From: Persicaria tinctoria
Lineage: Eukaryota > Streptophyta > Magnoliopsida > Caryophyllales > Polygonaceae
Direction of reading: 5' to 3'
Assembly (NCBI GenBank): GCA_037127255.1
Contig: JBANSL010000002.1
Coordinates: 97,494,519 to 97,558,518, forward strand
DNA: 64,000 nucleotides
The position numbers and the translations under genes were made by a program. This document shows, piece after piece, positions 30,811 to 64,000 of the stretch. How positions within the stretch are numbered: position 1 is the first letter of the stretch; each line of letters opens with the position of its first letter. A model generated the notes under the pieces. It did not search any database, was not told the DNA's origin, and saw only the letters and a program-made list of their open reading frames with translations.

Positions 30811-30928
30811 TTAGTAACGAGGTGTCGTGAACCGTAAGATAGGTCCACGACGGGGTTAGATATATACAAATATTAATAAATGCACAAAATAAAGAAATAA
30901 ACTTGATTCCCCGGCAACGGCGCCAATT

Positions 30929-32694
30929 TGACGGAGGGAAAGTCGTTGATTTACCTCGCCAAAAATAATTCCCAAACGAACAAACTAGTATAGTATGCAA
31001 GTAAGGGGTCGAACCCAAGAGAATCAAGTATTTCTAAATATTGTGTATTTATCAATATAAAAAGAAACGATTTTTATGAATGAAAATAAAAGAAGATAAT
31101 ATTGACAAAAGCAAATAAATGATGGAAGAAAAGCGTTTCCACCTACAAGTTCTCGACTTTGGTTGGTTTTATTGATCATCGAATCCTTTTCAAGCTATTA
31201 TCTTTTCCTACGAATTCCTCCCGTCTTGGTTTAAGTGGATTAAAAGTCCTACGAGTCCAATTAATCCCTTACCCCTCAATGCAACCTTAACACGGTCAAG
31301 ATTTAACAAAGAGATAGCAAATAGTCCCAAGAACTTGAGCATATAAATAACACCAATTAAACACGGTAAATCAATGTTTAAGATATATGTCAACTCCCTA
31401 CATAATCATGCTTCAAACACGGAATCCACAATCTTATGCGTGCTACTACGGAAATAACACAAATACGAAAGTATTAAATCCTAGCATGAAATCAATATTA
31501 TCAAGGTAGCTAATCAAGATAACATCAATAACATAATCAATATCGCACAAAGAAGTTGAAAGAATTATAGAGGAAAAATAACTTAAATTAGAAACTCACA
31601 AACCACCAACCAAGTCTCGAAAGTGTAGGCGGAAACTACAAAATTAGCCAAACATGGCTTACCTAAGCTTTCTTCTCTTCAAAGGTGATTTCTCTACTTA
31701 GAATTAATTCTTTTATTAAAAACTTAAGCCTAGAACATCCTATTTATAAGTCTAATGTCTTCCATAAATAAGGTAAAAGATAGATAAACTAGATAGAAAC
31801 TTCCTAAACAAACTAGATAGAAGATAGACTTTCCAAATTTAATTCAGCGTCAAATTCCGCTGGCAGCGAAAATTTCCGCTGGCAGCGAATGACGTCAATC
31901 AAGCTCCTGTTGGATTTTCGCTACCACACTCGCTACCACACTCGTTGGCAGCGAATGTCCATGCCTTAGAAAATTTTCAGCTTCTTCGGTTCCGCTTCCG
32001 CGAGTCCACCCTTCCGCTGCCGCGAGAGTCTCCATTCGCTGCCGCGAGAGCTTACATCCGCTGCAGCGAATCCGGTCGTCCGCTGGCAGCGACTCCATTC
32101 GCTGGCAGCGAGTTTCCTTTCGCTGGCAGCGAGTCATGCTGCTCCTGGACATGCTTCCGCTAACTCCAGTCGCTGGCAGCGACTCATGCTCAGGCCGGCC
32201 ACCTTCTCGCACATGTTGTTGCTGACTTGATTCGCTGCAGCGGAAAGGCATTCGCTTGCAGCGAAAATCCAACAGAACACCATCACGTAGATCTTCGAAA
32301 GAGCTTTCCAACGCATGCTTATATGCGTCGATCGGACATCCGAGGCCTCCGGAAAGTGCGTTACAAGTTCAGCTCGCCGAGCGGACAGCTTTCGCGACTC
32401 GCCCTCGTTTTCGCTCTTAGACCTCGATTTCGTTCTCCGTTGCTCCTTAGGTTGTTCCATTCTCTTTGGGACTTCTTCCTTAAGCTCTACAAAGTCTCGC
32501 CTTAGCCTTACTTAGCTCCATTCCTCGTGTTCTTTGCCTCGGATCTACGAATCTACATAAAACCATCGAAATAGCGTAGATTCCGAATTTTCCCACAAAA
32601 TGAATGATAATCTAATTAACACTAAAACATGATTATATAACAATGAAATGCACCGAAACTAACCTATAATGCCTATTGGAAACATGCCTTATCA
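30929..32694 (-). repeat. LTR 2 of the array
   Basis: 1766 bp and almost identical to LTR 1; single-base differences include 31696 and 32320. It is shared between two internal regions. Confidence 0.88.
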
Positions 32695-34757
32695 AACTCT
32701 CCCACACTTAACCTTTTGCTTGTCCTCAAGCAATACAAAAACAAGAGCAAAACCATCATACCACAAATATGATCTTCAAGCACTAACCTTGTCAAAAGCA
32801 ACATCAAAGTGGAGGAGCCATGAACCTGAAAGCTAACATCCTAGCAAGTATATAAGCGATTCAAAGTAAAGGCACATCTCATCCAACCTCACCGGGATTA
32901 TGTGTTTACTCTCACTCTCATGTGTATAGGCTTAACAACGTATCTCTCAACTCAATCCAAAATGCAAAAAGCTACATAGAAATTGACACATATATCACAT
33001 ATTCTTCACCGTGGATGCCATCACTTATAAGAAACATCAAGAGGTCTTTTATCAAGGTTGTAATGAGGCTTGGTAAGAAACTAAGGTAGGAAAATATTTA
33101 GGTTTATGGTGCTAAAAATCCGGGAAAAAGGGATCCCTAAGAACAACCGGAAGAACATCACAAATCAAATACTTTCAAAACCAAAATAACTCAAACTTTC
33201 ACTCTCAAAATACTCAACTAAAGAACTTTCTCTCAACCATACATTTTTCTAACTCTCACATTCATAATAAAATAAAAGGCTCTTATTCATGCTTTTTTTT
33301 TCTTTCTCTTTTTCTTTCACTTTTTTTTCTTCCAATTTTTTTTCTTTAGAGCCAAAACAATAATGCACAATGTGAGGACTAAAACCAAAATTACACACTC
33401 GTCCAAAACTTGTAACTCTCTTAACAATATCTTCTTTTCCACTCAACTAGATCAATCATTCACCAATTCTAATCCTAATTCCCGGATAGGGTAAGGCTCA
33501 TCATCGACTAAGATAAATTTTTGTGGAGCTTCAAAGAAAAGGCTAAGGCTCAAATTGGCTACAAGCAAAGGACACATATGTAGGGTGGATATGGATAATA
33601 ATATGGCTAAGAAAATCATGCCTCTATCATATGAAACTCATAAGTAATAAACATATAAATCGGCCTCAAATATAAATAACAATGTCAATCGCAAGAGGTA
33701 AGTACATAAGGAGAGTATAATCTCACACAAGAAAGCAAAAGGGAATAAATATGATGAAAATCCCTATAAGGCAAAAAATTCTCACTAGGATAAGTTTTGT
33801 TGGATTTCAATAATGCCCAAAACTAAGAATCATACTTGCTCAATTGAACTAACAAGTCATGCTCCAATAAAAATCATCTCAAGTATGTGACAAGGCTAGG
33901 CAATTCAATCATATTATGGAACATATATGGTAAAACTCATAAAAATAAAATAGAGGACAAACTAAGGCAAGATGGGTATTTGAAAAACACATATATGCAA
34001 TGCATGCTCTTTTTGGATTTTTTTTTCTCATTTTTTTTTCATTTTCCAATGCAATAAATTAACGAAAAAAATAAACATGAATGCATAACGGAAAAATAAA
34101 TATGAATGGATGCATGGATCTATGAATGCAACCCTCCCCCACACTTAAACTCTTCATTGTCCTCAATGAAAATCAAAGACAAAAAATCGTAAAAATAGGA
34201 GAGAAAGAGGGTAAAGAATAGCTCACATCATGGGAAAAGTTTCGATGGCGAAGATGATGAAGCTCGGAAGAAGAACGGTGAAGAACGACAACAACGAAGA
34301 CGGACGAACCACGAGCACGGATGAATAAAGATGGCGAAGAATGAATAAGATTGGATGCGACGACAACGGACGAAGACTAGGCATCACTGTTGGATTCGCT
34401 GGCAGCGAGTGTTGGTTCGCTGTCAGCGGATGAAATCAGCCCCTATGTCGTCTGAGCGGTTGGACTCGCTGGCAGCGAATCATGATTCGCTGGCAGCGAA
34501 TTTAGCAAAAATCTCTATTCTCCGGCCATTTTCTTTTCTCTTTTTTTTCCTGCATGGTTAACTCCAAAAATATTCCGAAAACATCTATCTACCATATAAA
34601 ATAATTAGGAAATTTCTAATTTATTAAACAACAAAACTAATTAACTAACTAGGAATGAAATAACCAATTTAGGAAAACTTACCTCGGGTTGCCTCCCGAG
34701 AAGCGTCCTTGTTTATCGTCATAGACTCGACGGTTTATTCTTTCATTTGTTCAAGAC

Positions 34758-35540
34758 TCACTCGGACATCGCCAATGCCCTTTTTAGCAAATCAAACTCT
34801 GGTGCACACCATCTAGGTAGGCGAGCACCACATATGAAGAAGCCGAAGTCAAAAGACGTGATGTTGAAAAAGGTCTCCAACTCTTCATATGCTCGAGCAT
34901 GACTTCTTGCCGAGGGTATGTAGTACCACCAACACAGTTCCATTGGTGGTTTGTTGAAGTAATGCTCCCAAGGATCTACATATTCACCAAAATCCACAAA
35001 AGTGTAAGAAATATCATTACCTTGCTCGGGAGAAATAGTAATTGGCTCCGGACTAGGTTCCTCAATAGATGTGTTGGGGATGATTTCTTTAGGTGGAGTA
35101 GGTGCCAAAATACATGGTTCCTCACACGTGCACTCATGAGGCTCCATGTCAAAGGACATCGGGCTCCCTTCTCCATCTTTGATTGAACCATTGATGCTTG
35201 CGTCTTGGCTTCCCTCATGTATCTCGCCCGCCATTGGTTTAAAAGGTAAGGGCATGGATGCCAACTTGCACTCTTCTTCCACCTTTGCCATGTCACCCAC
35301 GCAAAGGAAAAGATCCCACAATTTCGACCAATCTAAACCGTAAAAGCCTTCATTTTTCAATGATTGGGCGAATTCTTGTATCTCGGGAAGCATGCCATCT
35401 TGAACGCAAAGTACTTGTTCTTTCAAATCATCTTGAATACCCCGTGAAGCACGGTCGTCCACTAAATCTTGCACTCTTGTGAGGTAATGGTGAAAGTATT
35501 CTCCTTGGTATTGCCATAACTTCAACTCCATTGCAAACAA
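34758..35540 (-). CDS. Retroelement ORF, 260 aa (copy 2)
   Basis: Its translation is identical to that of the 260-residue frame at 30028-30810, exactly 4730 bp away. The identity supports a very recent duplication of the whole unit rather than independent insertions. Confidence 0.55.
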   Translation of the reverse strand: MFAMELKLWQYQGEYFHHYLTRVQDLVDDRASRGIQDDLKEQVLCVQDGMLPEIQEFAQSLKNEGFYGLDWSKLWDLFLCVGDMAKVEEECKLASMPLPFKPMAGEIHEGSQDASINGSIKDGEGSPMSFDMEPHECTCEEPCILAPTPPKEIIPNTSIEEPSPEPITISPEQGNDISYTFVDFGEYVDPWEHYFNKPPMELCWWYYIPSARSHARAYEELETFFNITSFDFGFFICGARLPRWCAPEFDLLKRALAMSE

Positions 35541-35658
35541 TTAGTAACGAGGTGTCGTGAACCGTAAGATAGGTCCACGACGGGGTTAGATATATACAAA
35601 TATTAATAAATGCACAAAATAAAGAAATAAACTTGATTCCCCGGCAACGGCGCCAATT

Positions 35659-37445
35659 TGACGGAGGGAAAGTCGTTGATTTACCTCGCCAAAAATAATT
35701 CCCAAACGAACAAACTAGTATAGTATGCAAGTAAGGGGTCGAACCCAAGAGAATCAAGTATTTCTAAATATTGTGTATTTATCAATATAAAAAGAAACGA
35801 TTTTTATGAATGAAAATAAAAGAAGATAATATTGACAAAAGCAAATAAATGATGGAAGAAAAGCGTTTCCACCTACAAGTTCTCGACTTTGGTTGGTTTT
35901 ATTGATCATCGAATCCTTTTCAAGCTATTATCTTTTCCTACGAATTCCTCCCGTCTTGGTTTAAGTGGATTAAAAGTCCTACGAGTCCAATTAATCCCTT
36001 ACCCCTCAATGCAACCTTAACACGGTCAAGATTTAACAAAGAGATAGCAAATAGTCCCAAGAACTTGAGCATATAAATAACACCAATTAAACACGGTAAA
36101 TCAATGTTTAAGATATATGTCAACTCCCTACATAATCATGCTTCAAACACGGAATCCACAATCTTATGCGTGCTACTACGGAAATAACACAAATACGAAA
36201 GTATTAAATCCTAGCATGAAATCAATATTATCAAGGTAGCTAATCAAGATAACATCAATAACATAATCAATATCGCACAAAGAAGTTGAAAGAATTATAG
36301 AGGAAAAATAACTTAAATTAGAAACTCACAAACCACCAACCAAGTCTCGAAAGTGTAGGCGGAAACTACAAAATTAGCCAAACATGGCTTACCTAAGCTT
36401 TCTTCTCTTCAAAGGTGATTTCTCTACTTGGAATTAATTCTTTTATTAAAAACTTAAGCCTAGAACATCCTATTTATAAGTCTAATGTCTTCCATAAATA
36501 AGGTAAAAGATAGATAAACTAGATAGAAACTTCCTAAACAAACTAGATAGAAGATAGACTTTCCAAATTTAATTCAGCGTCAAATTCCGCTGGCAGCGAA
36601 AATTTCCGCTGGCAGCGAATGGCGTCAATCAAGCTCCTGTTGGATTTTCGCTACCACACTCGCTACCACACTCGCTGGCAGCGAATGTCCATGCCTTAGA
36701 AAATTTTCAGCTTCTTCGGTTCCGCTTCCGCGAGTCCACCCTTCCGCTGCCGCGAGAGTCTCCATTCGCTGCCGCGAGAGCTTACATCCGCTGCAGCGAA
36801 TCCGGTCGTCCGCTGGCAGCGACTCCATTCGCTGGCAGCGAGTTTCCTTTCGCTGGCAGCGAGTCATGCTGCTCCTGGACATGCTTCCGCTGACTCCAGT
36901 CGCTGGCAACGAGATGCCATTCGCTGGAAGCGACTCATGCTCAGGCCGACCACCTTCTCGCACATGTTGTTGCTGACTTGATTCGCTGCAGCGGAAAGAC
37001 ATTCGCTGGCAGAGAAAATCCAACAGAACACCATCACGTAGATCTTCGAAAGAGCTTTCCAACGCATGCTCATATGCGTCAATCGGACATCCGAGGCCTC
37101 CGGAAAGTGCGTTACAAGTTCAGCTCGCCGAGCGGACAGCTTTCGCGACTCGCCTCCGTTTTCGCTCTTAGACCTCGATTTCCTTCTCCGTTGCTCCTTA
37201 GGTTGTTCCATTCTCTTTGGGACTTCTTCCTTAAGCTCTCCAAAGTCTCGCCTTAGCCTTACTTAGCTCCGTTCCTCGTGTTCTTTGCCTCGGATCTACG
37301 AATCTACATAAAACCATCGAAATAGCGTAGATTCCGAACTTTCCCACAAAATGAATGATAATCTAATTAACACTAAAACATGATTATATAACAATGAAAT
37401 GCACCGAAACTAACCTATAATGCCTATTGGAAACATGCCTTATCA
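35659..37445 (-). repeat. LTR 3 of the array (5'-most on the minus strand)
   Basis: 1787 bp. It is 21 bp longer than the others owing to an extra palindrome-bearing segment near 36909-36930, and it carries more substitutions. It abuts satellite at 37446 (ATTTCTCTG). Confidence 0.85.
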
Positions 37446-47942: not shown

Positions 47943-48149
47943 ATGAACAGAAACGATAACCCAACCATCATCAATTTGCGTTCAATTCTTGAGAAGAATA
48001 AGTTGAACGGCAATAATTTCCTCGATTGGGAAAGAAATCTGAGAATTGTTCTCAGGTCTGAAGGAAAAGAGAGTGTACTTGACACCCCAATCCCAAAATT
48101 GACTGATGCCTCTACTCAAGCTGAGAAGGATCAGGAAAAACAAAGATAA
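47943..48149 (+). pseudogene. gag: Copia gag N-terminus, separated by a frameshift
   Basis: The frame from ATG 47943 gives MNRNDNPTIINLRSILEKNK, a typical copia Gag start, followed by a LNGNNFLDWERNLRIVL motif. It ends at a TAA at 48147-48149. The continuation of Gag is in another frame from about 48130. The shift lies near the A-rich GGAAAAACAAAG at 48134-48145 and is most simply a small indel. Copia elements normally make one Gag-Pol protein, so this copy is probably unable to make a full-length one. Confidence 0.8.
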
Positions 48150-51100
48150 GTCAGTGATTGTCACATGTCTTATGCTGGCTTCTATGGAGTCGAGCCTTCA
48201 AAAGAGGTTCGAAAAGATGGATGATTGCACCATCATTCGCACCTTGAAAGTTATGTTTCAGGAACAAGCGAGGATGGAGAGGTATGAGACTCATAAGGCA
48301 ATACTTGATTGCAAACTTGAGAAAGGCAAGCCAGTTGGTCCTCATGTCTTTGAAATGATTGGTCATTTTGAAAACATGGAGAGACTTGGCCACCCCTATA
48401 GCCAAGAGTTGGCTACAGACATCATACTTCATTCTCTGCACGATGGATTTACTCAGTTCAAGCTAAACTTCAATATGAACGGAGCTGTAAAAACGCTTGA
48501 AGAGTTGCATGGGATGCTTAAGACCGCTGAGCAAAATCTAACTATGGGCAACAAGAAGGAGATCTTGATGGTCCAAAAGGGGAAAGGGTTCAAGAAAGGG
48601 GCATCTGGACAGCAGAAGAATGCAAAAGGGAAGGGTAAACCAATTACCCAACCCAAGAACACTTCTGAGAAAGCTAAAGTAGCTGCTGACCATGATTGTT
48701 TCTACTGCCATACCAAGGGTCACTGGAAGAGAAATTGCCCAAAGTATCTGGAGGATAAGAAGAATGGAACTGTGAGTTCCAATTCAGGTACGCATGTTAT
48801 AGAAGTCCTATCGGCTAATGGTTCTAGCTGGGTATTCGACTCAGGCTGTGCAGGTTCTCACATTATTACGAATGTGCAGGGGCTAAAAAGGCGTAGAAGC
48901 TTGGCCAAGGGAGAGGTAGATCTTCGAACTGGAACTGGAGCAAAGGCTGCTGCACTTGCTGTTGGAGATTATAGTCTACCTTTACCTTCTGGTTTAGTTT
49001 TAGAACTTAATAATTGTTATTTTGTTCCGTCAATTACTAGAAACCTTATTGCGGCTTCTGTTTTGGATTTAGAAGGCTACAATTATTCTTGCAAAGATCA
49101 ACCCTTGTCTATTTTCAAAGATAACATTTTTTATGCCGATTTTGTGTTGAGTAATGGACTCTACATTTTGGATCAAACATCCGGCATTTATAATGTAAGT
49201 ACCAAAAGGCAAAAATCAGACGCAGGTGATAACACCTACCTATGGCATTGTCGATTGTGTCACATAGGCTTAAATCGCATGAAGAAGCTCCATAAAGATG
49301 GACTTTTGACATCAAATGATTGTGAATCATTTGACACATGTGAGTCATGTCTAATGGGAAAAATGACAAGGTCACCTTTTACTGGGGTAAGTGAAAGGGC
49401 AACTGAGCTCTTGGCACTAATACATACTGATGTATGTGGACCTATGAGTACAGAAGCTAGAGGTGGGTATAGATACTTCATAACTTTTACTGATGACTTG
49501 AGTAGATATGGCTATATCTACTTAATGAAGTATAAGTCTGAATCATTTGAAAAGTTCAAAGAATTTCAGAATGAAGTTGAAAACCAGCTTGACAAGAAAA
49601 TTAAGGCACTCCGATCTGATCGTGGTGGTGAATATTTGAGTCAAGAGTTTGATCATCATTTGAAAAGTTGTGGGATATTATCACAACGAACTCCACCCGG
49701 AACACCCCAAATGAACGGTGTATCTGAAAGGAGAAATAGGACCCTTTTGGACATGGTTCGATCAATGATGAGTTTTGCTAATCTTCCAATATCTTTCTGG
49801 GGGTATGCTCTCACAACCGCAATGTTCACACTAAACAGGACTCCATCTAAGGCTGTAGAAAAGACACCATATGAGTTATGGACTGGAAGAGTTCCAAGTT
49901 TGTCTTTTCTCAAGGTTTGGGGATGCGAAGCATACGTAAAATGTTTACTAGCAGATAAGCTCGCACCCAAATCAGATAAATGCTTCTTTGTAGGGTACCC
50001 TAAGGAAACTAAAGGGTACTACTTCTACAATCCCACCGAGCACAAAGTGTTTGTTGCCAGGGATAGTGTCTTTTTGGAAAAAGAGTTTGTTTCCAAAAAG
50101 TCAAGTGGGAGAAATGTTGATCTCGAAGAGGTTCGAGAGAAGCAACAAACCGAGCAGCAAGAAGACATGGATCACTCCATGACTGAGGCTGTGATTTTTG
50201 AGGACCTAATTCCAGAAGAAGATGGAACTCAAACTCATACAATGGGGGAGGTGGAATTGGAGGTGCAAGACCCCATTCCCAATAAGCCACAAAATGTTGT
50301 GGTGGAACCTCTAGTTGCTCAACCCACGCGTAGATCAGAAAGGGCAAGATCGCTACCAAATAGATTTGCTGAATTCATATTGAATACAAGTCTAGACATT
50401 TTGTTGTTAGAAAGCGATGAACCCACTACATATAAGCAAGCTTTGACGAGTCCAGACTCTAAGAAGTGGCATGATGCCATGGTATCCAAAATGGATTCTA
50501 TGTCTGAGAATCAAGTATGGGACTTGATAGATCCACCAGATGGGATAGTACCCATTGGGTGCAAATGGGTTTACAAACTCAAAACAGACAAGAATGGAAA
50601 GGTAAATCTATTCAAAGCAAGACTGGTTGCGAAAGGGTTTAAACAGGTTCATGGTATTGACTATGATGAAACTTTCTCACCAGTCGTTATGATTAGATCC
50701 ATCCGGATACTCCTAGCAATTGCAGCTCATTATGATTATGAGATCTGGCAAATGGATGTCAAGACCGCGTTTCTAAATGGATACTTAGAAGAGGATGTGT
50801 ACATGACACAGCCTGAAGGTTTTAAGGATCCACAAAATCCTAGGAAGGTATGCAAACTTAAGAAATCCATTTATGGACTTAAGCAAGCATCAAGGAGTTG
50901 GAACCTTCGATTTGATGAAGTGATCAAACAGTTTGAATTCATCAGATGTGAAGAAGAACCTTGTGTTTACAAAAAGTTTAGTGGGAGCAAAGTTGTATTC
51001 TTGGTTTTGTATGTGGATGACATACTACTCATTGGGAATGACATTCAAATGCTTGAGTCTGTAAAAGACTGGCTCAAGAAGCATTTCTCAATGAAAGACC

Positions 51101-51999
51101 TTGGAGAGGCAGAGTACATTTTAGGCATCAAGATCTATAGGGATAGATCCAAGAGACTCATTGGACTAAGTCAGGGAACTTATATAGATAAGGTTCTAGA
51201 CAGGTTCAAAATGAAAGATTCCAAAAAGGGATTTTTGCCCATGCAACATGGTCTATATCTAAGCAAGAAGCAGTGTCCAGTAACACCTGCTGAGCTGGAT
51301 AGAATGAGTCGGATCCCTTATGCATCAGCAATAGGATCCATTATGTATGCCATGATATGTACTCGCCCAGACGTTGCATTCGCCTTAAGTGTGTGCAGCA
51401 GATACCAATCGAGTCCAGGTGAAGCACACTGGAGTGCAGCTAAGAACATCCTCAAGTACTTGAGAAGAACTAAGGATGATTTCTTGGTGTATGGTGGTCA
51501 TGATGAGTTGATCGTTCAAGGATACACTGATGCTAGCTTCCAGACAGATAGAGACGACTTCCGATCCCAATCCGAATACGTTTTTATTCTTAATGGAGGA
51601 GCTATGAGCTGGAAGAGCTCAAAGCAAGACACAGTAGTTGATTCTACAACAGAGGCTGAGTACATCGCTGCAGTGGATGCTGCTAAGGAAGCCATCTGGA
51701 TAAGGAAGTTTTTAGCCGAGCTTGGTGTGGTTCCCAAAGGGGTTAAAGCCATTGACATTTATTGTGACAACAATGGTGCCATTGCTCAATCCAAAGAACC
51801 AAGCTCCAATTCCAAATCCAGGCACGTGCTCAGGAAGTATCACGTCATACGAGACTATGTCCAAAGAGGTGACGTGAGGCTATGCAAGATACACACGGAT
51901 AACAACATAGCAGATCCGTTAACTAAACCTCTTCCCAAGCCCAAGCATGATAGTCACACTAGAGCTAAGGGACTCAAGTCCATTGGTGAATGGATTTGA
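48106..51999 (+). CDS. gag-pol: Copia Gag-Pol polyprotein (frame after the shift, 1297 codons)
   Basis: Positions are in this frame. Rest of Gag (UBN2-type) to about residue 150, with the CCHC zinc knuckle CFYCHTKGHWKRNC near 198-211. Aspartic protease with DSGCAGSH near 243 (the usual DSGA/DSGC site). GAG-pre-integrase zinc finger with LWHCRLCHIG and CESCLMGK (about 379-417). Integrase core with the D, D, E residues in HTDVCGP (about 440), LRSDRGGEY (about 505) and NGVSERRNRT (about 540). Reverse transcriptase from about 805 with YVDDILLIG near 968. RNase H near 1139 (YTDASF, STTEAEYIA, YCDNNGA). The order protease-integrase-RT-RNase H defines Ty1/copia. No internal stop is present. With 0.45% LTR divergence this is a recent insertion; only the gag shift disables it. 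Confidence 0.93.
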   Translation: MPLLKLRRIRKNKDKSVIVTCLMLASMESSLQKRFEKMDDCTIIRTLKVMFQEQARMERYETHKAILDCKLEKGKPVGPHVFEMIGHFENMERLGHPYSQELATDIILHSLHDGFTQFKLNFNMNGAVKTLEELHGMLKTAEQNLTMGNKKEILMVQKGKGFKKGASGQQKNAKGKGKPITQPKNTSEKAKVAADHDCFYCHTKGHWKRNCPKYLEDKKNGTVSSNSGTHVIEVLSANGSSWVFDSGCAGSHIITNVQGLKRRRSLAKGEVDLRTGTGAKAAALAVGDYSLPLPSGLVLELNNCYFVPSITRNLIAASVLDLEGYNYSCKDQPLSIFKDNIFYADFVLSNGLYILDQTSGIYNVSTKRQKSDAGDNTYLWHCRLCHIGLNRMKKLHKDGLLTSNDCESFDTCESCLMGKMTRSPFTGVSERATELLALIHTDVCGPMSTEARGGYRYFITFTDDLSRYGYIYLMKYKSESFEKFKEFQNEVENQLDKKIKALRSDRGGEYLSQEFDHHLKSCGILSQRTPPGTPQMNGVSERRNRTLLDMVRSMMSFANLPISFWGYALTTAMFTLNRTPSKAVEKTPYELWTGRVPSLSFLKVWGCEAYVKCLLADKLAPKSDKCFFVGYPKETKGYYFYNPTEHKVFVARDSVFLEKEFVSKKSSGRNVDLEEVREKQQTEQQEDMDHSMTEAVIFEDLIPEEDGTQTHTMGEVELEVQDPIPNKPQNVVVEPLVAQPTRRSERARSLPNRFAEFILNTSLDILLLESDEPTTYKQALTSPDSKKWHDAMVSKMDSMSENQVWDLIDPPDGIVPIGCKWVYKLKTDKNGKVNLFKARLVAKGFKQVHGIDYDETFSPVVMIRSIRILLAIAAHYDYEIWQMDVKTAFLNGYLEEDVYMTQPEGFKDPQNPRKVCKLKKSIYGLKQASRSWNLRFDEVIKQFEFIRCEEEPCVYKKFSGSKVVFLVLYVDDILLIGNDIQMLESVKDWLKKHFSMKDLGEAEYILGIKIYRDRSKRLIGLSQGTYIDKVLDRFKMKDSKKGFLPMQHGLYLSKKQCPVTPAELDRMSRIPYASAIGSIMYAMICTRPDVAFALSVCSRYQSSPGEAHWSAAKNILKYLRRTKDDFLVYGGHDELIVQGYTDASFQTDRDDFRSQSEYVFILNGGAMSWKSSKQDTVVDSTTEAEYIAAVDAAKEAIWIRKFLAELGVVPKGVKAIDIYCDNNGAIAQSKEPSSNSKSRHVLRKYHVIRDYVQRGDVRLCKIHTDNNIADPLTKPLPKPKHDSHTRAKGLKSIGEWI

Positions 52000-54164: not shown

Positions 54165-54615
54165 TGTTTGATATAAATAGATATTATCAATATCACTTAA
54201 TATTTAAATATCAGATTTAGGCATCGATATCATTTGATATACTGATTTTGAGGGGATATTACTTGATATGTAGATATTACTTGATATTTTGAATAAAAAA
54301 AAAAAGATATTACTTGATATCAGATTTACGCATCGATATCATTTAATATTTAGATATCGATATCATTTAATATTTGATATCATTTAATATTTAGATATCA
54401 GTATTATTTGATATATTGATTTTGAGGGGATATCAACTTATATCGATATCTTAATATCGATATTATTTGATATATTGATTTTGAGGGGATATCAACCGAT
54501 ATCATTTAATATTATTTGATATCTAGATATCAACTAATATCGATATCTTAATATCGAGATATTACCGATATTGATATCTTGATACCGATATCAATATCAA
54601 TATCTGATATCTAGA
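54165..54615. repeat. GATATC/TTTGATAT degenerate minisatellite
   Basis: Dense irregular repetition of GATATC, TTTGATAT, TTAATATTTAGATATC and GATTTTGAGGGGATAT (the last seen three times, near 54244, 54418 and 54476). The motifs are largely self-complementary. The tract sits directly beside the (TTA)n microsatellite. Confidence 0.8.
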
Positions 54616-54642
54616 TATAACGAGGTCTAATGTCTTTATCCA

Positions 54643-54643
54643 C

Positions 54644-54698
<55 letters not shown>

Positions 54699-54720
54699 TT
54701 ATAATAAATATTATTATTAT
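54643..54720 (+). repeat. (ATT)n microsatellite, 3' of element A
   Basis: About 78 bp of ATT repeats with one interruption near 54700. Element A ends directly against it; in the element's sense the tail reads (AAT)n. Confidence 0.95.
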
Positions 54721-55332
54721 AAATTACAAGAAATTAGTGGGTAGCCGAGATACTATCTAGGCCCACACTCCTTTAACGATAATAAAACTAAGTCTAGTAA
54801 AAATAAAAGCTACAACACGAGCCCCGGCGTGATGAGATACCGAGACTTTCTGAATCCGCTTCAACAAGGCAACTGCATCTGTATCCAGCTCCCCCAACGA
54901 CGAGAAGGAAAAGGGTAGGAAACCATATCCAGCCGTCGTGCACACATCTCTATACTTGACACACTTACGTTGAGCAGCAGCAGAAACAACACGGTCTGGG
55001 ACAAAGTCAGACACCCCTGACTGAGTCAAAGGGGAGGACCCCGTCAGATCAACACACACATCTCGCCTCCTATCCCATGAATAAAGAAGCAAATATGTCG
55101 GACGAAGAGGCTTATCATGTCCATCAACCAACCCGATATCAACTTCCTTAGCGGCAGAAATCACATCCCTATAGCAGATATCCAATAAGGTGTCGCACAC
55201 AAGGTTGTGTCAATGTTTGATGCCTACAGTACCGGCGCAGGACATAGCATGATCTCCATAGACATCACCATCAAAGACCCGAGAACAAGCCGGACATGGC
55301 CTAGATACCGCAAACAAAGGAACACCCAGACG
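54721..55332 (-). pseudogene. Element A: 5'-truncated RLE-type LINE copy
   Basis: Holds only the last ~200 codons, starting at RLGVPLF and ending LPTNFL just before the microsatellite. The CCHC knuckle (CPACSRVFDGDVYGDHAMSC) and the endonuclease-like segment (KEVDIGLVDG, RPTYLLLYSWDRRRDVCVD) are visible. One frame runs through, interrupted by two premature stops: TGA at 55210-55212 where other copies have Arg, and TAG at 54757-54759 where they have Gln. Note RPTY replaces the RPAD/RPGD of the other copies, so a putative catalytic Asp is lost. The 5' end joins (AAT)n directly, as expected for an incompletely reverse-transcribed insertion. Confidence 0.82.
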
Positions 55333-55362
55333 AATTATTATTATTATTATTATTATTATTTT
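55333..55362 (+). repeat. (ATT)n microsatellite between elements B and A
   Basis: About 30 bp, the shortest of the four spacers. It separates the 3' end of element B from the truncated start of A. Confidence 0.93.
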
Positions 55363-58300
55363 AATTATAAACTCCAAATAGTATAGAAACAAGCTGCGCG
55401 CCAACCCCCTTAGCAATGGAAAAACAAACTCTGGTAAAAATATGAGCAGCTAGATGAGAACTAGAATCTAAGGCTAAATAGAAAGAGCGGATCCGTCACA
55501 GAAGCGCAATCGCATCCCCATCCAGCTCACCAAAGGAGGAGAAAGAAAAAGGCAAAACCCCATAACCAGCAGCAGAGCACACATCTTGATACTTGATACA
55601 CTTACGCCGCACAACGTCGAGAACACATCGTCCAGGAGCGAAGGAAGCCAAGCAAGTCTGAGTGAGGGGGGAGGAACCAGTGATATCAACACACACATCT
55701 CGACCCCGATCCCAAGAGTAAAGAAGAATGTCAGCGGGCCTAAGAGGGCCGCCAAGACTGTCAACAACACCAATGTCTACCTCCTTCCCAGAGGAGATCC
55801 CAGCACGGAAGCAAATGTCAAAGAGGGTATCACGAATAAGATTATGCCGATGTTTGAGCCCAAGAGAACTCGAACACGACACAACATGATCCCCAAAAGT
55901 ATCATCCTCAAAAACCCGACCACATGCAGAGCAAGGGAGACCAGCACGAAAAAGAGGGATACCCAAACGATAGCAGAGTACAGACCTGTAAGTCCTACCA
56001 TTCATGGTCTGAGCGAGCCCAGAAATAGGAACTGCTCTGAGCCAATCAGATGAAAGGGGCCCATGCTGAGACCTCCACAACACCACCTACCGCGGGGTCA
56101 ATGAAAAAACCGACTCAGAAGAAGCCACAATCCGGGCGAAGTACACATCTGCCAATTTCTTCATAAGTTTAGGGGCAGCGAACTCGCAATAATCATGACT
56201 AAAATCAAAACTAGTAAGACCATTGAAATCACACAGCGCAACGTCAAAAGAGGCTCCCTCACCCAGGGGCAGCCCAGCAAGGCGGAGGAGCGAGGACTGC
56301 AGGCGCGAGGCCAGAAAAGAATAATGCATGACGTAACCAACAACATAAACCCCAAGCCCACCGTACCGAAACGGAAGAGTAGCCAACCTTCACTGCCAAT
56401 CACCAAACCCGGGTCCAGAAGCAGTCACAATACGCTCTAAACAGACACGGAGGGCACTGTCAAAAGTAGACTGAGCTGGGACGACGACACCCGACGGACA
56501 AGTATGCAAGGTGAAATAAAGTCTACAGATACCTGAACAAGCCCGAATCAAAAGCAGCTCACTCTACGGATCCTCAAGTTTGGAAACAAGACCCGTAAGC
56601 TCGACGGTCTTGGCCACCCGAGTCGCAACAATCTCAGCACTGTAAACAGAACAAGTACTGACAGGACCACCCAAAACCGTAACGCCAGAAACAGGCCGAG
56701 CAATGCAGACTGGGAAAACACCAGGCACCAAGCCCCTAGGATCCACGACCGGCCAAAAGACCTCAGTCTTATCCACATTAAGGTGCAACCCCAACGCAGG
56801 ACCCTCAACCGCAATCAAGTCAAGAACCTGGCTAACCAAAAGAGTGTCCCCTACAATAGAGCCATCATCCAAATACCAAGCCTAGAAGCATAAATCGAAC
56901 GTATCCCGGATCTTGCATATCAGAGGGTGCAAGACCAAAGCAAGGAGCAACGGACCAAGGGGATTACCCTGCTGGACCCCCTGGCAAGACCAAAGGTAGT
57001 GCTCCCCGTAGTAAAGTCGAGCAGGGCTAGAGTAACAGAACTCGACCCAACGCGAGAGGCCAGGGCACTGACGACGGACCTCCAAAAGCAGAGTAGTACG
57101 AGACTTTACAAGCCTATTCAAGGCATGCAGAATGGCCTCACCACCTTCAGAAACACCAACTCCGAACTGCAGGTCCCTAAAATACCCAGATAACTGAGGC
57201 CCAACCAAGAAAGCACCCACCTTAGACACAAGGCTTCTCCGGATCGTACCGATGGCAATAGGGCGGATACCACCCCCCCCCCCCCCCCCCCCCCCCGGTT
57301 TGACCAAGGGAGTAAGAGGGGCACTAGCAACATATTCTCCAAGAGCAGACGAACACCGACCCTCCAAAAAGATGTTCACCACACTCGTAATAGAAACAAG
57401 AAGCTCATCAGAAATAGCAACGGCCGCACCACTAAAATAGTCTAACAGATGCTGGGCCTTGAGCCCATCCCTACCACAAGAAGTACCACGCGGGAAACTC
57501 CTAATGGAATCCAAAATAATGGGCGGGAAAGCAATAACAGAAGGCTGATGGGCAAAACCACAAGGCAAAGCAGGGAGAGGGGCAAAACCACAAGGCAAAG
57601 CAGGGAAAGGGGCAAAACCACAAGGCAAAGCAGGGAGAGGGGCAACAGGGTGCTTGTCACAAAGCGCAATCAAAGTAGAATTAGAGTAGAGAGCAACACC
57701 GGAAGAAGAGAAAACCCGCATAGCAGCGGTGAAATGCCCATCAGAAATCTTCTTACGGCATTGACGGAGGTTAAGCTCCGGTGTGTGAGGCTCATCATCA
57801 TCCCCAACACCCTCACTGAAAGACACAGGTGCTGCCTTCAAGGCGGCCCCAAGCAACACAGTGTCACCCCCCGGAGCGCTCCAATCAACAAGAGCACTGG
57901 CAATCGACTCCTCCTAGCGTGTACGTCGAACACCCGATCGACGATCACTACTACTCCTTGGTACAAAAGCACGCAAAACACAGATGGGCATAGCCAGTAG
58001 CCGAATCCAAGCAGCAATATCAGTAGGGGCGGCAATAACACGGTCAAGCACCCCCTTAAGGGCCCGAGCAAAACCAAGACGACAACGTGGCGGTATGGAC
58101 TGAACCGTACGTAGTCCCTTGCCCAAAAGACGATCAAAAGTAATCAAATCCCATCCCAAGTCCACTTGTGCTACCCCACTATCACGTGGCACACTATCAT
58201 CTAAAGGGACAGGGGATGACAAAACTGATCCCGACGTAGGCAAAGTAGGTCGCAGAACAGGGCAATCAATATTGAAAATGAAAAACAGAGCATTACCGTC

Positions 58301-58951
58301 ACCGTCGTCTGGCGGGGAAACAACAACTCCATCGGGATGACGGCAAGGAGAACGTAACGTGTGAAGAGAACAACAAACACCACATAACCAAACGTTCAAC
58401 TTTTGGAAAGTAGCCTCAGCATTGGCATAGACGACCGGAGAAGACGACAGAAGTGAACAAGTATCAGCGGCAGAGATACCAGAACCATGCCTATCCTTGA
58501 AATGACGCAAGAAGGCAGTTTTGACAAGTCCGCGCCCACCACCATTGGGGCAATTTTGGAGGCTAACAAAGGGACACAGAAAGCAGTCCTTAGGGACCTG
58601 CATGACAGCGAAACGAAGGCGCAAGATCGAAAGCAAACCCGAAACCCACGGAAACCAGTACAACCAACAAGGCTAGGGTTTGGATTTTTGGATTAAGGAA
58701 ATTTGGACAAAAAGAGGGCGTGGGAAGGTGCGGCCTGTCGAGGAGGTCTTGCTGTCGGCAACCACGAAGCCATCGGAGGCCGGAGGCGGCGGCACCGCGT
58801 CGGAAAAGGAAAAGCCAGTGGGAGGGTCGGGGTTCAGCAGGGAGGGTGACTGGGATCAGGAGCAACCCATAGGCGGCGGCGTCCCGGTCAGAGTAGTCGC
58901 CTCACCGACCTGCTGTTATTCGCCAGTCGCCTAATCGCCTCACCGACCTGC
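55363..58951 (-). pseudogene. Element B: full-length RLE-type LINE with nonsense decay
   Basis: One frame continues for the full element from the likely start at 58603 to about 55365, broken only by stops at 57914, 56882, 56564, 56390, 56087 and 55496, with no frameshift. Domains in order: zinc fingers (CFLCPF...FLRHFKDRH, then WLCGVCCSLHTLRSPCRH); RT with FPRGTSCGRDGLKAQHLLD, CQGVQQGNPLGPLLL and WYLDDGSIVGDTL; CCHC knuckle (CSACGRVFEDDTFGDHVVSC); and the endonuclease-like KEVDIGVVDS, RPADILLYSWDRGRDVCVD. Oddities: a 24-nt C run at 57273-57296 lengthens the Gly run in the KPGGG-IRPIA motif; an in-frame 33-bp triplication lies at about 57547-57645 (ALPCGFAPLP-type repeats); about 40 bp is duplicated at the 5' end (58890-58951). 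RT motif A (LVDFKNAF in copy C) appears deleted. Confidence 0.85.
57273..57296 (-). repeat. 24-nt poly(C)/poly(G) run in the RT frame of element B
   Basis: Encodes a Gly run where copy C has KPGGGIRPI. The length is a multiple of three longer than in copy C, so the frame is kept. Confidence 0.9.
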
Positions 58952-58971
58952 TATTATTATTATTATTTTTT

Positions 58972-59035
<64 letters not shown>

Positions 59036-59038
59036 GAA
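58952..59038 (+). repeat. Switching microsatellite (ATT)n-T8-(AAT)n between elements C and B
   Basis: Plus strand reads ATT repeats to 58965, a T run, then AAT repeats to 59034. The repeat strand flips inside the tract. Element C's 3' end meets the AAT side; element B's 5' end meets the ATT side. Confidence 0.95.
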
Positions 59039-59045
59039 TAGGAGT

Positions 59046-60566
59046 TTACAAAGAATTAGTGGGGAGCCGAGAGACAATCTGGGCCCCCACTCCTTTAGCA
59101 ATAGAAAACCCCACTCTAGTGAAAATATGAGCTGCATTATGAGCCCCTATATCGTGAGCGTGTGCAAATTTTTGGATCCTCTGTAGAAGGGCTATGGCGT
59201 CTGCCTCAAGTTCCCCCAATGCAGAAAAAGAAAAGGGTAAGAACCCATAACCAATGGCTTTACACTTATCCTGATACTTGACCCGCTTACGACGAGCCGC
59301 CTCGACCACCACATGTCCTGGAACAAAATCAACCATCCCAGATTGCGTCATAGGGGATGACCCTGTCAAGTCAACACAAACATCCATTCCATCATCCCAC
59401 GTATAAAGAAGCACGTCCGCAGGACGGAGGGGTTTTCCGTCTCCTCCACACAAGCCAATATCAACCTCTTTACCAGCTGAGATCCCAGAACGATAACAGA
59501 CATTCACCAAAGTGTCACGAACAGCATTATGACGATGTTTAATCCCCACAACACCAGCACACGACACAGCATGATCACCAAAAATGTCTCCCTCAAATAC
59601 CCTGGAGCAAGCAGAACAAGGCGTCAAAATGGAAAACAAAGGGATGCCTAACCGATAGCCTAACACACAACGATACGTCTTACCATTCATAGTCTGACCC
59701 AGCCCTGAGATGGGGACAGCCCTAAGCCAGTCAGTAGCATGGTCTCGACACTGAGAACTCCACAAAGCCATCTGACGCGGTGATAAGGAAAAGGTATTCT
59801 CTGCATCTTTCGTAATCCGTGTGAAATATATGTCTGCCAGTTTCTTCATGAGTTTGGGGGCAGCGATCTCTCTTGGATTACTCAGAATATCAGTCCCTAC
59901 CTTTGTATTGAAGACACGCACGGCGTCATCGAAGGCATACCCAGGTGATGCGACCTCAGTATGCTGGAGAAGCTTAATCTGCAGGCTAGCTGATTGCAAG
60001 CGCGAAGCCAAAAAAGCATAAAAGAGAGCGTCACCTGCAGAATAAACACTAAGCCCCCCAAACCTGAAGGGCAACGTGGCGAGTCTCCATTGCCAATTGC
60101 CAAAACCCGGACCCGAAGCAGTAACGATACGCTCTAGAGAACGTCGAAGGGCTAGATCAAACTTAACCTGAGCAGACTCAAAAGCACGAGGTGGACATGT
60201 ACGCAGAGCAAAATAAAGTTTTGAGACACCAGTACAAGCACGCAGCAGCAACAACTCACATTGCGGGTCACCAATCTTAGCAACCGCATCCATAAGTGCG
60301 ATCGTTTTGTCCACTCTCTTCATCACAAGCTCGGTACTGAACACAGAATTAACACTGACAGGTCCTCCAAGGAGCTTGACCCCATGCAACGGCCTAGCAA
60401 TGTTAGGTGGAAAAACACCAGCCAACCTACTCCTCGGGTCCTCTTTCGGCCAAAAGACTTCAGTTTTATCAATATTGAGGTGCAGACCATAATTGGGCCC
60501 TTCCTCAATAATCATATGTAGAACTTTCCCCATGACTAAGGTATCTCCAAACAATAGTGCCGTCAT
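59046..60566 (-). CDS. Element C protein, part 2: RT thumb, CCHC knuckle, restriction-like endonuclease
   Basis: A 506-codon frame overlapping part 1 by 62 bp; the numbers are codons in this frame. The first residues are read in the wrong frame; after the shift GDTLVMGKVLH matches copy B. An RT thumb/linker region reaches to about 300. The knuckle CSACSRVFEGDIFGDHAVSC (C317, C320, H332, C336) is followed by RHN (345-347). Then KEVDIG (K366, E367) and RPADVLLYTWDDGMDVCVD (D384, D395, D399) form a PD-(D/E)XK-like constellation. This layout (RT, then CCHC, then RHN, then PxD...D) is that of the C-terminal endonuclease of R2/R4/NeSL-type LINEs. The stop codon lies within about 10 bp of the (AAT)n tract. 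Confidence 0.82.
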   Translation of the reverse strand: MTALLFGDTLVMGKVLHMIIEEGPNYGLHLNIDKTEVFWPKEDPRSRLAGVFPPNIARPLHGVKLLGGPVSVNSVFSTELVMKRVDKTIALMDAVAKIGDPQCELLLLRACTGVSKLYFALRTCPPRAFESAQVKFDLALRRSLERIVTASGPGFGNWQWRLATLPFRFGGLSVYSAGDALFYAFLASRLQSASLQIKLLQHTEVASPGYAFDDAVRVFNTKVGTDILSNPREIAAPKLMKKLADIYFTRITKDAENTFSLSPRQMALWSSQCRDHATDWLRAVPISGLGQTMNGKTYRCVLGYRLGIPLFSILTPCSACSRVFEGDIFGDHAVSCAGVVGIKHRHNAVRDTLVNVCYRSGISAGKEVDIGLCGGDGKPLRPADVLLYTWDDGMDVCVDLTGSSPMTQSGMVDFVPGHVVVEAARRKRVKYQDKCKAIGYGFLPFSFSALGELEADAIALLQRIQKFAHAHDIGAHNAAHIFTRVGFSIAKGVGAQIVSRLPTNSL

Positions 60567-62247
60567 CCAAATACCACGCCTGAAAACACACCTGAAACAT
60601 CTCCCAGATTTTGCGTACCAACGGATGCAAAACTAAAGCAAAAAGAAGAGGGCCGAGAGGATCCCCTTGCTGCACCCCCTGACAAGATCGCAGAGTATGA
60701 TCCCCATAGTACAATCTCGTTGGATTAGAGTAGCAAAATTCAACCCAACGAGAGATTGCAGGACAATGGTTCCGTACTTCACGGATCATAACTTCCCGCT
60801 CAACCATATTGAAAGCATTTTTAAAGTCCACTAACAACATAGTAAGACCCTCATCATCACCGCGCTCCTCAACTAAGCGATTCACAGCATGGAGAATGGC
60901 CTCCCCCCCACCCGACACACCTACTCCAAACTGAAAATCACCCAAATAACCACTCAAGGAATGACCAATCAAGGAAGCACAAACCTTGGAAACCAAACGC
61001 CTCCAGACCGTACCCACAGCAATGGGGCGAATACCCCCGCCCGGCTTGACAAGTGGTGTGAGAGGCGCACTAGCAATATACTCGCCTAAAACCTTAGGGC
61101 ATTTCCCCTCTAGAAAAAGATTAACCACCTGGGTGATAGCATTAACTAACTCATCAGAAATAGCAACTGCAGCCCCACTCAAACAATCCATAAGATGTTG
61201 AGCACGCAAACCATCTCGTCCACAAGATGTACCACGTGGAAAACTCTTAATCCTGTCCAAAACAACCTCCTTAGACGAGAATAAGTTATGGTGACCAACT
61301 GGAGTAGTAGGTATGGGCGGCGGCGGAGAGAAAGGATGTTTTGCCTTTAACTCATCAATAGTGGTATTAGAATATGGGGCAATGCCAGAGGAGGAAAGGA
61401 CCCTAACAGCAGCGGTGTAGTGCCCATCACAAATCTTCCTCTTACACTGTTTGATATTGCGTTCTGCCAACTCAAGGTCCTCCTCACCAGCCTCCGACAA
61501 GGGAGGAGAGGGCTCACTAAGAGTATCTGAAACAAGCTGCATAATAGTGGTCGACTCACTCCATGAACAAATAGCCTTGACTATACAATCCTCCTGCAAC
61601 CGCCGCTTGTTACCAGACCTGGACTCTTGGCTACTCCTCGGGGAAAAAGTTTTAAGGATACACATAGGCATCACCAACAATCTAACCCACCCTCCGATGT
61701 CAACCGGGTTGCTGATCACCTTATCAAGAGCTCCTATCAACACCCGAGAAAACCCAAGACGACACTTTGGGGGAATAGATTTCACAGTGTGCAGCCCCTT
61801 GGAAAAGATACGGTCGAGCAGATCAATATTGAAAGCCAATTGTTGTCCATCCACCATACCAGAATCACGAACTGGTTGCACTGGTGAAGAGGTAACTTGT
61901 GGTCTAGCAAAATCATAAAGCACAAATCTAACCACACCATCCCCACAATCAGGGGGGTGTACAAACTCAGAACCCCTCCCATGGCGGCATTTAGAGCGAA
62001 GAGTATGCGTTTTAAAACATACTCCACACAACCAAATCCCCATCCTCTTAAAAGTAGTTTCGGCCGCATTGAAAACAAGAATATTAGAAGAAATAGCATC
62101 CCTTGTTGTTTCCTGAGCATCCCCCGTACAATGGCGATCCTTAAGGTGTGTGATTAAGGACGCCTTGGTAAGCCCTTGGCCACCACCATCTTGGCACCCA
62201 TTGAGACCCACGAACAGACAATGAAACCGAACCGTAGCAATCGGCAT
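60505..62247 (-). CDS. Element C protein, part 1: zinc fingers and reverse transcriptase
   Basis: The open frame extends upstream to 62508, but MPIATVRFHC at 62247 aligns with the start of copy B and is preferred. N-terminal zinc-finger-like segments: CLFVGLNGC...LITHLKDRHC (one Cys of the copy B finger is Arg here) and WLCGVCFKTHTLRSKCRH. RT motifs: FPRGTSCGRDGLRAQHLMD (about 61240), KPGGGIRPIAVGTVWRR (about 61035), motif A LLVDFKNAFNMV (about 60830), motif B CQGVQQGDPLGPLLF (about 60675) and motif C WYLDDGTIV (about 60560). Directly after DDGTIV the frame shifts and ends after 14 wrong codons, so the RT thumb and endonuclease lie in the next frame. Its role would be target-primed reverse transcription on the element RNA. 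Confidence 0.85.
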   Translation of the reverse strand: MPIATVRFHCLFVGLNGCQDGGGQGLTKASLITHLKDRHCTGDAQETTRDAISSNILVFNAAETTFKRMGIWLCGVCFKTHTLRSKCRHGRGSEFVHPPDCGDGVVRFVLYDFARPQVTSSPVQPVRDSGMVDGQQLAFNIDLLDRIFSKGLHTVKSIPPKCRLGFSRVLIGALDKVISNPVDIGGWVRLLVMPMCILKTFSPRSSQESRSGNKRRLQEDCIVKAICSWSESTTIMQLVSDTLSEPSPPLSEAGEEDLELAERNIKQCKRKICDGHYTAAVRVLSSSGIAPYSNTTIDELKAKHPFSPPPPIPTTPVGHHNLFSSKEVVLDRIKSFPRGTSCGRDGLRAQHLMDCLSGAAVAISDELVNAITQVVNLFLEGKCPKVLGEYIASAPLTPLVKPGGGIRPIAVGTVWRRLVSKVCASLIGHSLSGYLGDFQFGVGVSGGGEAILHAVNRLVEERGDDEGLTMLLVDFKNAFNMVEREVMIREVRNHCPAISRWVEFCYSNPTRLYYGDHTLRSCQGVQQGDPLGPLLFALVLHPLVRKIWEMFQVCFQAWYLDDGTIVWRYLSHGESSTYDY

Positions 62248-62947
62248 CGACAAGCAACAACAAAGCACACCCAAACCAATATGCACCAAAGCAACTGATC
62301 GACAAACAAACACAACAGTAGAAGGTACCACAGCAACCGAACCACAACAACAACAAGCACTACCACAATACCACGGACGACAAACACAACAACCGATCAC
62401 GAAAACCAAGGACGCTGGGAAGGAGCATAGACAATCGGCAGTTGCCCTAGAGGTCGCCGAAACAGACCGGACACCAGAGCCACCACCACCAGTGCACCCC
62501 ACCACCACCGAACAAAGAGAGAGAGAGAGAGAGAGAGAGAAGACACACCTGCGCTACCACCGGACTGACCTGATGCAACGGAGAAGACAATGAGTGCCGA
62601 GACCGCTGGATGCCGGGGAACGCTAGTTGCTGAAAAAGAAGAGACACCGCCAACGCCGGGGAACACCGCCGGACTGAACTGATGCCCCAGAGACAGCGAG
62701 AGCGACTGAGAGGAAGACCCGTGCGCTGATCATCGAAGCCGCTGAACCCCACAACCGCCGAAAACTCACAGCCCCACCACCGAGATTGGGATCCGGCCTC
62801 AGGAGCGCCTGCTCTGGCCTCAGGAGCGCCTACCCCGGCCACCAAGAACCGCCGGAGGGACGGCCTGCCTGAACGCCGAGGCCGCCAGCCGTTGAACGCC
62901 GATCGATCGCCCAAATCTTCCGTGCCCTAGCAGACGTCACATTTCAA

Positions 62948-62949
<2 letters not shown>

Positions 62950-63046
<97 letters not shown>
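62950..63046 (+). repeat. (TTA)n microsatellite between elements D and C
   Basis: About 97 bp of uninterrupted TTA repeats, the longest pure tract in the window. Element D ends on its right side and element C begins on its left. Confidence 0.95.
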
Positions 63047-64000
63047 AATGAATTACACAAAGTTAGTTGGAAGTCTCGTAACAAATTGAGCTCCAACCCC
63101 TTTCTGAATAGTAAATCCAACTCTATGAAATAAGAAATCACCATTATTAGACCTCGCCCCATGACTCTTTGTAACCAATTGAACCCGCTTCATAAAGCCA
63201 ATAGCATCATCTCCCAGTTCCCCCAAAGTAGAGAACGCAAATGCCATGAAGCAATACCCTTTAGTAGCACAAATAATTGTATACTTCTTCTCCTTCTTTT
63301 CAGTCGCTTGGGAAACCGCCTTGCTAGGTACAAAGGAATCATTAGCTCTAGTTGTAAATGGCGAAGCCCCAACCACATCGACACAAGTGTCCCTACCTTT
63401 GTCCCACCCGTAAACCAATAAATCGCCTGGCCGCAGCTCAACACCATCATCACTGGTCATACCAGTACGCGCTTCCTTCTGAATTGTGATACCCGCCTTA
63501 TAAAAAATGTCTGCCAAAACATATCGTACCATATTATGTCGGTGCTTAGTCTCGATGCCTCGACTGCAATGCAGAGCATGGTCTCCAAAGGGGTCCATCT
63601 TATCCAGCTCACAACTGGGACATGTCGGATACCCACTAAACATAGGAATAGAGAGATGGTATTGGAGGACAGAACGAAATTGGCGAGACGGCATGGTCTG
63701 AGCAAGGCCCTCAATGGGAGTAGTCAACAAAAAATCATGTGCTCTTTCTCCTCTCACTGCTTGCAAAACCTGCAGCTGCCTTGATGTCGGATTGAGTGTA
63801 GACACCAAGTTGTCATCAATGAACTTGAAGTATCGAACCGCCAATACTGACATGATTTTTTTGGGGGCGGGGGATACAAACAAGTCATCAATATCTGAAC
63901 CAACACAAGCGACATACCTCGAGATAGCTTGGGTGAGAACACTATCAGAGCTAATGTCAGGATGTCTGGAAGGTGATGGCGCCAACTTACTCAAAATGGA
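63047..64000 (-). CDS. Element D: diverged RLE-type LINE, C-terminal part (5' part off the window)
   Basis: An uninterrupted frame from the window edge to the stop at 63053-63055. It ends GAQFVTRLPTNFV, matching the ends of A and C (LPTNFL, LPTNSL). It holds the knuckle CPSCELDKMDPFGDHALHC, then KHRHNMVRY, KEARTGMTSDDG and RPGDLLVYGWDKGRDTCVDV. It is clearly more distant from A-C than those are from each other, so at least two subfamilies meet here. With no stop in 313 codons it may be a functional copy. The 3' UTR is again almost absent before the TAA tract. Confidence 0.85.

Follow-up and report, generated by a model that had tools for sequence, protein, structure and literature searches.

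A probable lineage of restriction-like endonuclease LINEs in flowering plants, bordered by TAA/TTA microsatellites

Which kind of retrotransposon lies in the last 9.3 kb of a 64,000-nt stretch of the Persicaria tinctoria genome (assembly GCA_037127255.1, contig JBANSL010000002.1, positions 97,494,519 to 97,558,518; hereafter the window), and why do its copies border on AAT/ATT microsatellites? In two reviews the long interspersed nuclear elements (LINEs) of flowering plants are L1 and RTE only (PMC9033089, PMC3747384; published sources are cited here from excerpts). In the open literature, with Repbase and subscription papers outside the scope, we found no described plant LINE with a restriction-like endonuclease (RLE), barring automatic labels; these exceptions are the labels of a spinach survey (PMC6337768) and single CRE or R2 table entries in two plant databases (PMC4865326, PMC8729191). 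For a brown alga, LINE/CRE families appear in a partly hand-made library (PMC12477816). We conclude, with a probability of about 0.8, that the copies in the window belong to a flowering-plant RLE LINE lineage within a broader eukaryotic RLE clade, and that this lineage inserts into TAA/TTA microsatellites.

One retrotransposon lineage accounts for the array, a head-to-tail series of four minus-strand copies that read D, C, B, A along the element strand:

63053..64000, minus strand: element D, C-terminal 315 codons (linker, CCHC knuckle, RLE), frame open to the window end, second subfamily
59046..62247, minus strand: coding region of element C, overlapping frames 60505-62508 and 59046-60566
55361..58951, minus strand: element B, long but decayed, its first ~350 nt a presumed leader
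54721..55333, minus strand: element A, 5'-truncated, last 202 codons, RHN and the RPxD Asp mutated

The original prediction, drawn from the letters of the window, had described four related copies. This is borne out by the open reading frames (ORFs) and by tblastn matches at 54727-55332 (A), 55379-58582 (B), 59049-62226 (C) and 63056-63967 (D), all on the minus strand; no fifth copy appeared in the tblastn rows of the 3 of 8 relative queries examined. Element C is full length, and its single ORF is split by one frameshift directly after the YLDD motif of the reverse transcriptase (RT); the ORF is open in the relatives P0100 (1074 aa) and P0111 (1068 aa). By tblastn, C is 68-71% identical to the open 1061-aa relative P0003. 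Element B carries 6 in-frame stops and a poly-G run and has lost the first RT Asp motif, and in A a stop replaces the R of RHN and Y the Asp of RPxD. An AT-rich tandem region of GATATC-like units (54208-54612) lies directly downstream of A.

The domains of the lineage are best followed in element C:

60562..60573, minus strand: RT catalytic motif YLDD of C, from the sequence and the RVT_1 match (E 6.9e-12)
59559..59618, minus strand: CCHC knuckle of C, CX2CX11HX3C, with invariant and near-invariant columns
59217..59540, minus strand: RLE core of C, frame residues 343-450, with E367, D384, D399 and K427-RV-K430-Y431

In C, RVT_1 was the sole Pfam match (E 6.9e-12), the C-terminal frames giving no match above the cut-off, and the best solved-structure matches to the RT of C were R2 and then L1 RTs. 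The proposed arrangement of N-terminal Cys/His fingers followed by an RT holds for B and C, the part in question not being visible in A (5'-truncated) or in D (window end). The proposed series of CCHC, RHN, E, RPxD, CxD and KxxKY recurs in all four copies at the same spacings, except for one residue in the CCHC of D. The knuckle has the spacing CX2CX10-11HX3C, and B, C and D share RHN-X19-E-X13-RP(A/G)D-X14-D plus KX2KY, in which RPxD holds one residue more than the published R/KPD-X12-14-D/E (motif definitions from PMC12857005 and PMC5678591).

The elements were also said to lack an apurinic/apyrimidinic endonuclease (APE), and Pfam indeed found none in full-length C or in full-length relatives, a result that rests on B, C and the relatives. 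Five full-length members of the plant clade (P0100 from Tagetes and P0111 from Ranunculus by name; P0003, P0022 and P0035) showed RVT_1 and no APE, as did one row each from a sponge, a tardigrade and a contig of a metagenome-assembled genome (MAG); the sponge row had an additional sub-threshold Sgf11 match. Plant L1 and RTE elements carry an APE nuclease, in place of which the present elements have the RLE. At 8987-10801 (minus strand) and 2202-3617 (plus strand) the window also contains fragments that resemble plant L1-type LINEs in having zf-RVT and RNase H (RVT_3) domains. Unlike these fragments, the present elements have neither RNase H nor zf-RVT.

A direct search of the RLE against solved structures was not significant with the C-terminal frame alone, and with the RLE as second domain of a profile match the register was right and the score negative. 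A structural model and a profile-profile comparison were needed. The C-terminal part is predicted to fold as alpha-beta3-alpha-beta, and all seven Foldseek matches of this model below E 0.001 were R2 proteins. The model thereby agrees with the expected R2-like RLE fold, and it places D384, D399 and K427, the first Lys of KX2KY, in position. The profile-profile match of the RLE to the R2 RLE exceeded 60 column shuffles, as would be expected of the R2-type endonuclease that had been suspected; of the 22 rows chosen, 20 entered the comparison, as the CCHC pattern applied did not find P0256 and P0356. With a predicted full-length model of P0003 (predicted local distance difference test, pLDDT, 70.6), Foldseek ranked R2 at the top (E 3e-18; L1 3e-12), and by VIA R2 and L1 tied (20.5 and 20.1), as expected of a common RT; this model adds little on the nuclease. 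Overall, the R2 elements R2Tg, R2Pm and R2Bm share with the present copies the order RT-CCHC-RLE, the predicted RLE fold and the RHN, E, PD, D and KX2KY motifs, and the nuclease appears to be the type that R2 elements of insects and vertebrates carry. These results support the assignment of the elements to the non-long terminal repeat (non-LTR) retrotransposons of the RLE group.

Two subfamilies, D against A, B and C, had been proposed as well. Protein likeness is 58-67% among A, B and C and 38-44% between D and these three, and a C-terminal tree (30 rows of the first search described below, thinned to 7 at 72% identity, plus three outgroup rows; a fourth outgroup row, P0232, was too incomplete to include) agrees in setting D apart, its support (91/93 and 80/96) falling short of the starred, highest level. 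The ratio of nonsynonymous to synonymous change (dN/dS) over the C-terminal codons is about 0.12 (A-C), 0.17 (B-C) and 0.20 (C-D), with dS saturated at 1.7 to 3.1 over all pairs. Such low values of dN/dS indicate purifying selection: the lineages evolved as working proteins before the present copies decayed. Given these values and the match of C to P0003, the motif series is far from chance.

How widely the lineage occurs was followed from the N-terminal frame of C, a search that gave 1968 proteins at E <= 0.001 (7995 scored). Among the best 120, every organism-named row was from a flowering plant, in at least eight genera (Tanacetum, Spinacia, Papaver, Silene, Striga, Helianthus, Tagetes, Ranunculus), and most plant relatives bear names of the type 'hypothetical protein' or 'putative reverse transcriptase domain-containing protein'. 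Six species that were looked up fall in the orders Asterales, Caryophyllales, Lamiales and Ranunculales; Helianthus and Tagetes belong to the Asteraceae. A near-complete relative, P0009, is encoded in spinach. Viral contigs, scanned twice, yielded no DNA of the plant relatives. A prokaryote collection held 8 contigs with relatives, two of which were examined: L001 (578-4726) and L002 (3-3239) carry eukaryote-type RLE LINE proteins, nearly identical by eye, and are filed under Verrucomicrobia and Spartobacteria MAGs of a species-representative genome set. They are probably misbinned eukaryotic DNA. A search from the L001 relative gave 144 proteins, the best 120 of which named the sponge Ephydatia, the dinoflagellate Polarella, the tardigrade Paramacrobiotus and two plants; one from a tardigrade protein gave 196, the best 120 of which named two tardigrades, the moth Plutella and the crab Chionoecetes, whose protein P0356 bears the source name 'Retrotransposable element SLACS protein'. 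In P0286 and P0295, two relatives of the tardigrade element, precomputed annotation places ubiquitin C-terminal hydrolase domains (PF00443, PF13423) next to the RT, possibly a LINE-encoded deubiquitinase.

An RT tree was built from 38 of 211 near-complete rows together with C, three R2 sequences and one L1 sequence. Ten plant-labelled rows (P0009, P0043, P0063, P0100 and P0111 by name, plus P0003, P0022, P0035, P0064 and P0089) form one clade with C, with support of 100/99. The complete set of 39 (the 38 rows plus C) is likewise a single clade (100/100), on a branch of 5.19 that makes the R2 RT a distant one, with R2 and L1 on the opposite side; the order of R2 and L1 is unreadable, the L1 row being very long. 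By the approximately unbiased test, grouping of the plant-side rows with L1 alone was rejected (p-AU 0.006), as was grouping with R2 alone (p-AU 0.0015), both groups having been chosen after inspection of the tree and the L1 row being a very long branch. The phylogenetic check against L1 thus went as predicted, and the label 'R2/R4-type' is not supported beyond the domain order.

As to the named clade, our leading guess is CRE, from the SLACS name of the crab protein and a survey of spinach. Membership of the CRE clade, as kin of SLACS, CRE1 and MoTeR, has a chance somewhat short of even. P0356 lies inside the same RT clade, a survey of spinach with MGEScan-nonLTR labels 642 LINEs as CRE and 22 as R2 (PMC6337768) in the species that encodes P0009, and the clade (SLACS, CRE1/2, CZAR, MoTeR, FoTeR) belongs to the RLE group with a similar published motif series (PMC12857005). 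However, source names and pipeline labels are not phylogeny, the references in the RT tree are R2 and L1 only, and CRE elements differ in the X6-8 of their CCHC (X10-11 here) and in their targets, which are spliced-leader gene exons and telomeres and not TAA repeats.

It is a more tentative idea, and on balance a doubtful one, that the RLE LINEs of plants, sponge, arthropods, tardigrades and dinoflagellate make up a cross-kingdom clade so far unrecognised as one lineage. The plant branch would then be an overlooked third LINE lineage of flowering plants, residing in TAA microsatellites, in which pairing between the element's own 3' repeat and the target replaces a structured 3' untranslated region (UTR).

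The borders of the copies, on which the original prediction was silent, bear on the second part of the question. The window has five AAT/ATT tracts of at least 16 nt (55, 27, 16, 63 and 96 nt; 257 nt in sum, 0.4% of the window), all on element borders, and two more of 15 nt each elsewhere. A microsatellite tract meets the 3' end in all four copies:

62950..63045, minus strand: (TAA)32 on the element strand, a 96-nt perfect tract, bordering D on its 3' side and presumably C on its 5' side
62248..62949, minus strand: presumed 5' leader of C, 702 nt, from the microsatellite up to the Met that lines up with full-length relatives
58952..59035, minus strand: 3' border of C, (TTA)21 on the element strand followed by an A-rich joint and then by (TAA)5, the last being the presumed 5' border of B
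55334..55360, minus strand: (AAT)9, bordering B on its 3' side and, firmly, A on its 5' side
54644..54720, minus strand: (TAA)n tail of A, inner part interrupted

Since only 7 nt in D and 10 nt in C separate the stop codon from the repeat, there is practically no 3' UTR. At the other end, the coding homology of A starts at most 2 nt from the tract that ends B, and the 5' junction of A lies within this tract. The presumed leaders of C and B both start at an AAT/ATT tract as well. Pfam found no domain in the one longer frame of the C leader, blastn with 7-base words gave chance-level matches only between the leaders of B and C and window positions 1-54600, and the 5' stretches fold no better than shuffles (z -1.34 for B, +0.47 for C). 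The 8 Rfam matches listed for 54500-64000 at E up to 10 included no rRNA family, no U2 family and no ribozyme of the hepatitis delta virus (HDV)-like kind, as at the 5' end of the silkworm element Dong, the last being a weak test.

Based on these borders, we propose how the lineage would insert. One RNA would encode one protein of about 1050 aa with Cys/His fingers, RT, CCHC knuckle and a PD-(D/E)XK nuclease. By analogy to R2, this protein would bind a (TAA)n tract, perhaps through its fingers, and the RLE would nick the tract, so that the freed 3' end could prime reverse transcription at the TAA-rich 3' end of the RNA (target-primed reverse transcription). The 3' repeat of the RNA would pair with the nicked tract and set template and register; with almost no 3' UTR, such pairing is the simplest choice of both. 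R2 elements, in contrast, insert into 28S ribosomal DNA and not into TAA microsatellites, and they have a long structured 3' UTR, unlike the 7-10 nt (D, C) after the stop codon here. Newer copies would insert in the tails of older ones and give rise to head-to-tail arrays. The copies are too divergent for recent tandem duplication, so repeated insertion into AAT/ATT repeats is the simplest account of the array. The lineage may still be mobile today.

Several observations weigh against this reading. C ends in (TTA)n, the reverse of the (TAA)n orientation seen in D, B and A, so that a simple templated UAA tail cannot account for all four copies; the (TTA)21/(TAA)5 tract may be target rather than templated tail, or may reflect later rearrangement. 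Each 5' border doubles as the tail of a neighbour, a pattern noticed post hoc, and targeting therefore rests on one array. The leaders of B and C match each other at chance level only (blastn, 7-base words, best E 0.36) and may contain non-element DNA. Without clear mutual similarity the 5' borders of B and C are presumptive, which lowers our trust in the present reading and in the cross-kingdom clade and raises it for a templated tail. None of the copies in the window has an intact, complete ORF, the X10-11 of the CCHC is larger than the X7-8 of the published RLE-group knuckle (CX1-3CX7-8HX3-4C), and the groups behind the p-AU values were picked with the tree in view. Finally, among near-complete C-termini all four motifs occur in 23 of 30 rows of the first search and in only 1 of 107 rows of the two non-plant searches, so the full set is specific to the plant side; of the non-plant rows, 32 of 107 have KX2K(Y/H) and 68 of 107 a CCHC of such spacing.

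That (TAA)n is a mere templated 3' tail of an RLE LINE lacking target preference, with nesting by chance, is rather unlikely. (TAA)n follows the 3' end in 3 of 4 copies with only 10 nt (C) and 7 nt (D) from stop to repeat, B and C have presumptive 5' borders, and microsatellite tails without targeting exist in other LINEs. On such an account, however, the truncated A would start within 2 nt of the terminal tract of B by coincidence, as would the presumed leaders of C and B at theirs, and C should not end in TTA; with protein likeness of 38-67%, recent tandem duplication is an improbable source of the pattern.

Less probable still is that the lineage belongs to the R4 clade. Dong, an R4 element of silkworm, is also of the RLE group and lies in TAA repeats, which are reported at its 5' junction (PMC3774820). 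However, a common TAA target could be convergent, and no counterpart of the self-cleaving 5' ribozyme of Dong was listed by Rfam for 54500-64000 at E up to 10, again a weak test. Microsatellite targets have likewise been noted for Hero and Togen (PMC4640811). Utopia elements are of the RLE group too, have N-terminal zinc fingers and occur in several supergroups; they differ in targeting the U2 small nuclear RNA gene, and the abstract of their description names Amoebozoa, SAR and Opisthokonta, not plants (PMC4640811).

It is scarcely conceivable that the copies are plain plant LINEs of the L1 or RTE type whose APE has diverged or been lost, as full-length C and the scanned relatives have no APE, an RLE is present, RNase H and zf-RVT are absent, unlike in the L1-type fragments of the window, and grouping with L1 was rejected (p-AU 0.006). 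L1 and RTE resemble the present elements as non-LTR retrotransposons of plants and differ in their tails, which are poly(A) or (GTT)n (PMC9033089).

If a microsatellite-inserting RLE lineage of flowering plants is confirmed, plant repeat libraries and gene sets will have to make room for one more class of LINEs, and how RLE LINEs spread will have to be explained for plants besides animals and protists. The R2 proteins now used in DNA insertion could also usefully be compared with a plant enzyme that inserts into simple repeats.

Elsewhere in the window, one open frame at 48106-51999 (plus strand) encodes a Copia-type polyprotein of 1297 aa that contains gag, integrase and RVT_2 domains. Units of about 4.7 kb stand in tandem at 27165-37062, with identical ORFs 4730 bp apart (27165/31895 and 30028/34758) and a third variant at 36625. 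Satellite arrays with a period of 358-360 bp and up to 15.8 copies occupy 13094-14248, 17881-19007 and 20479-26147.

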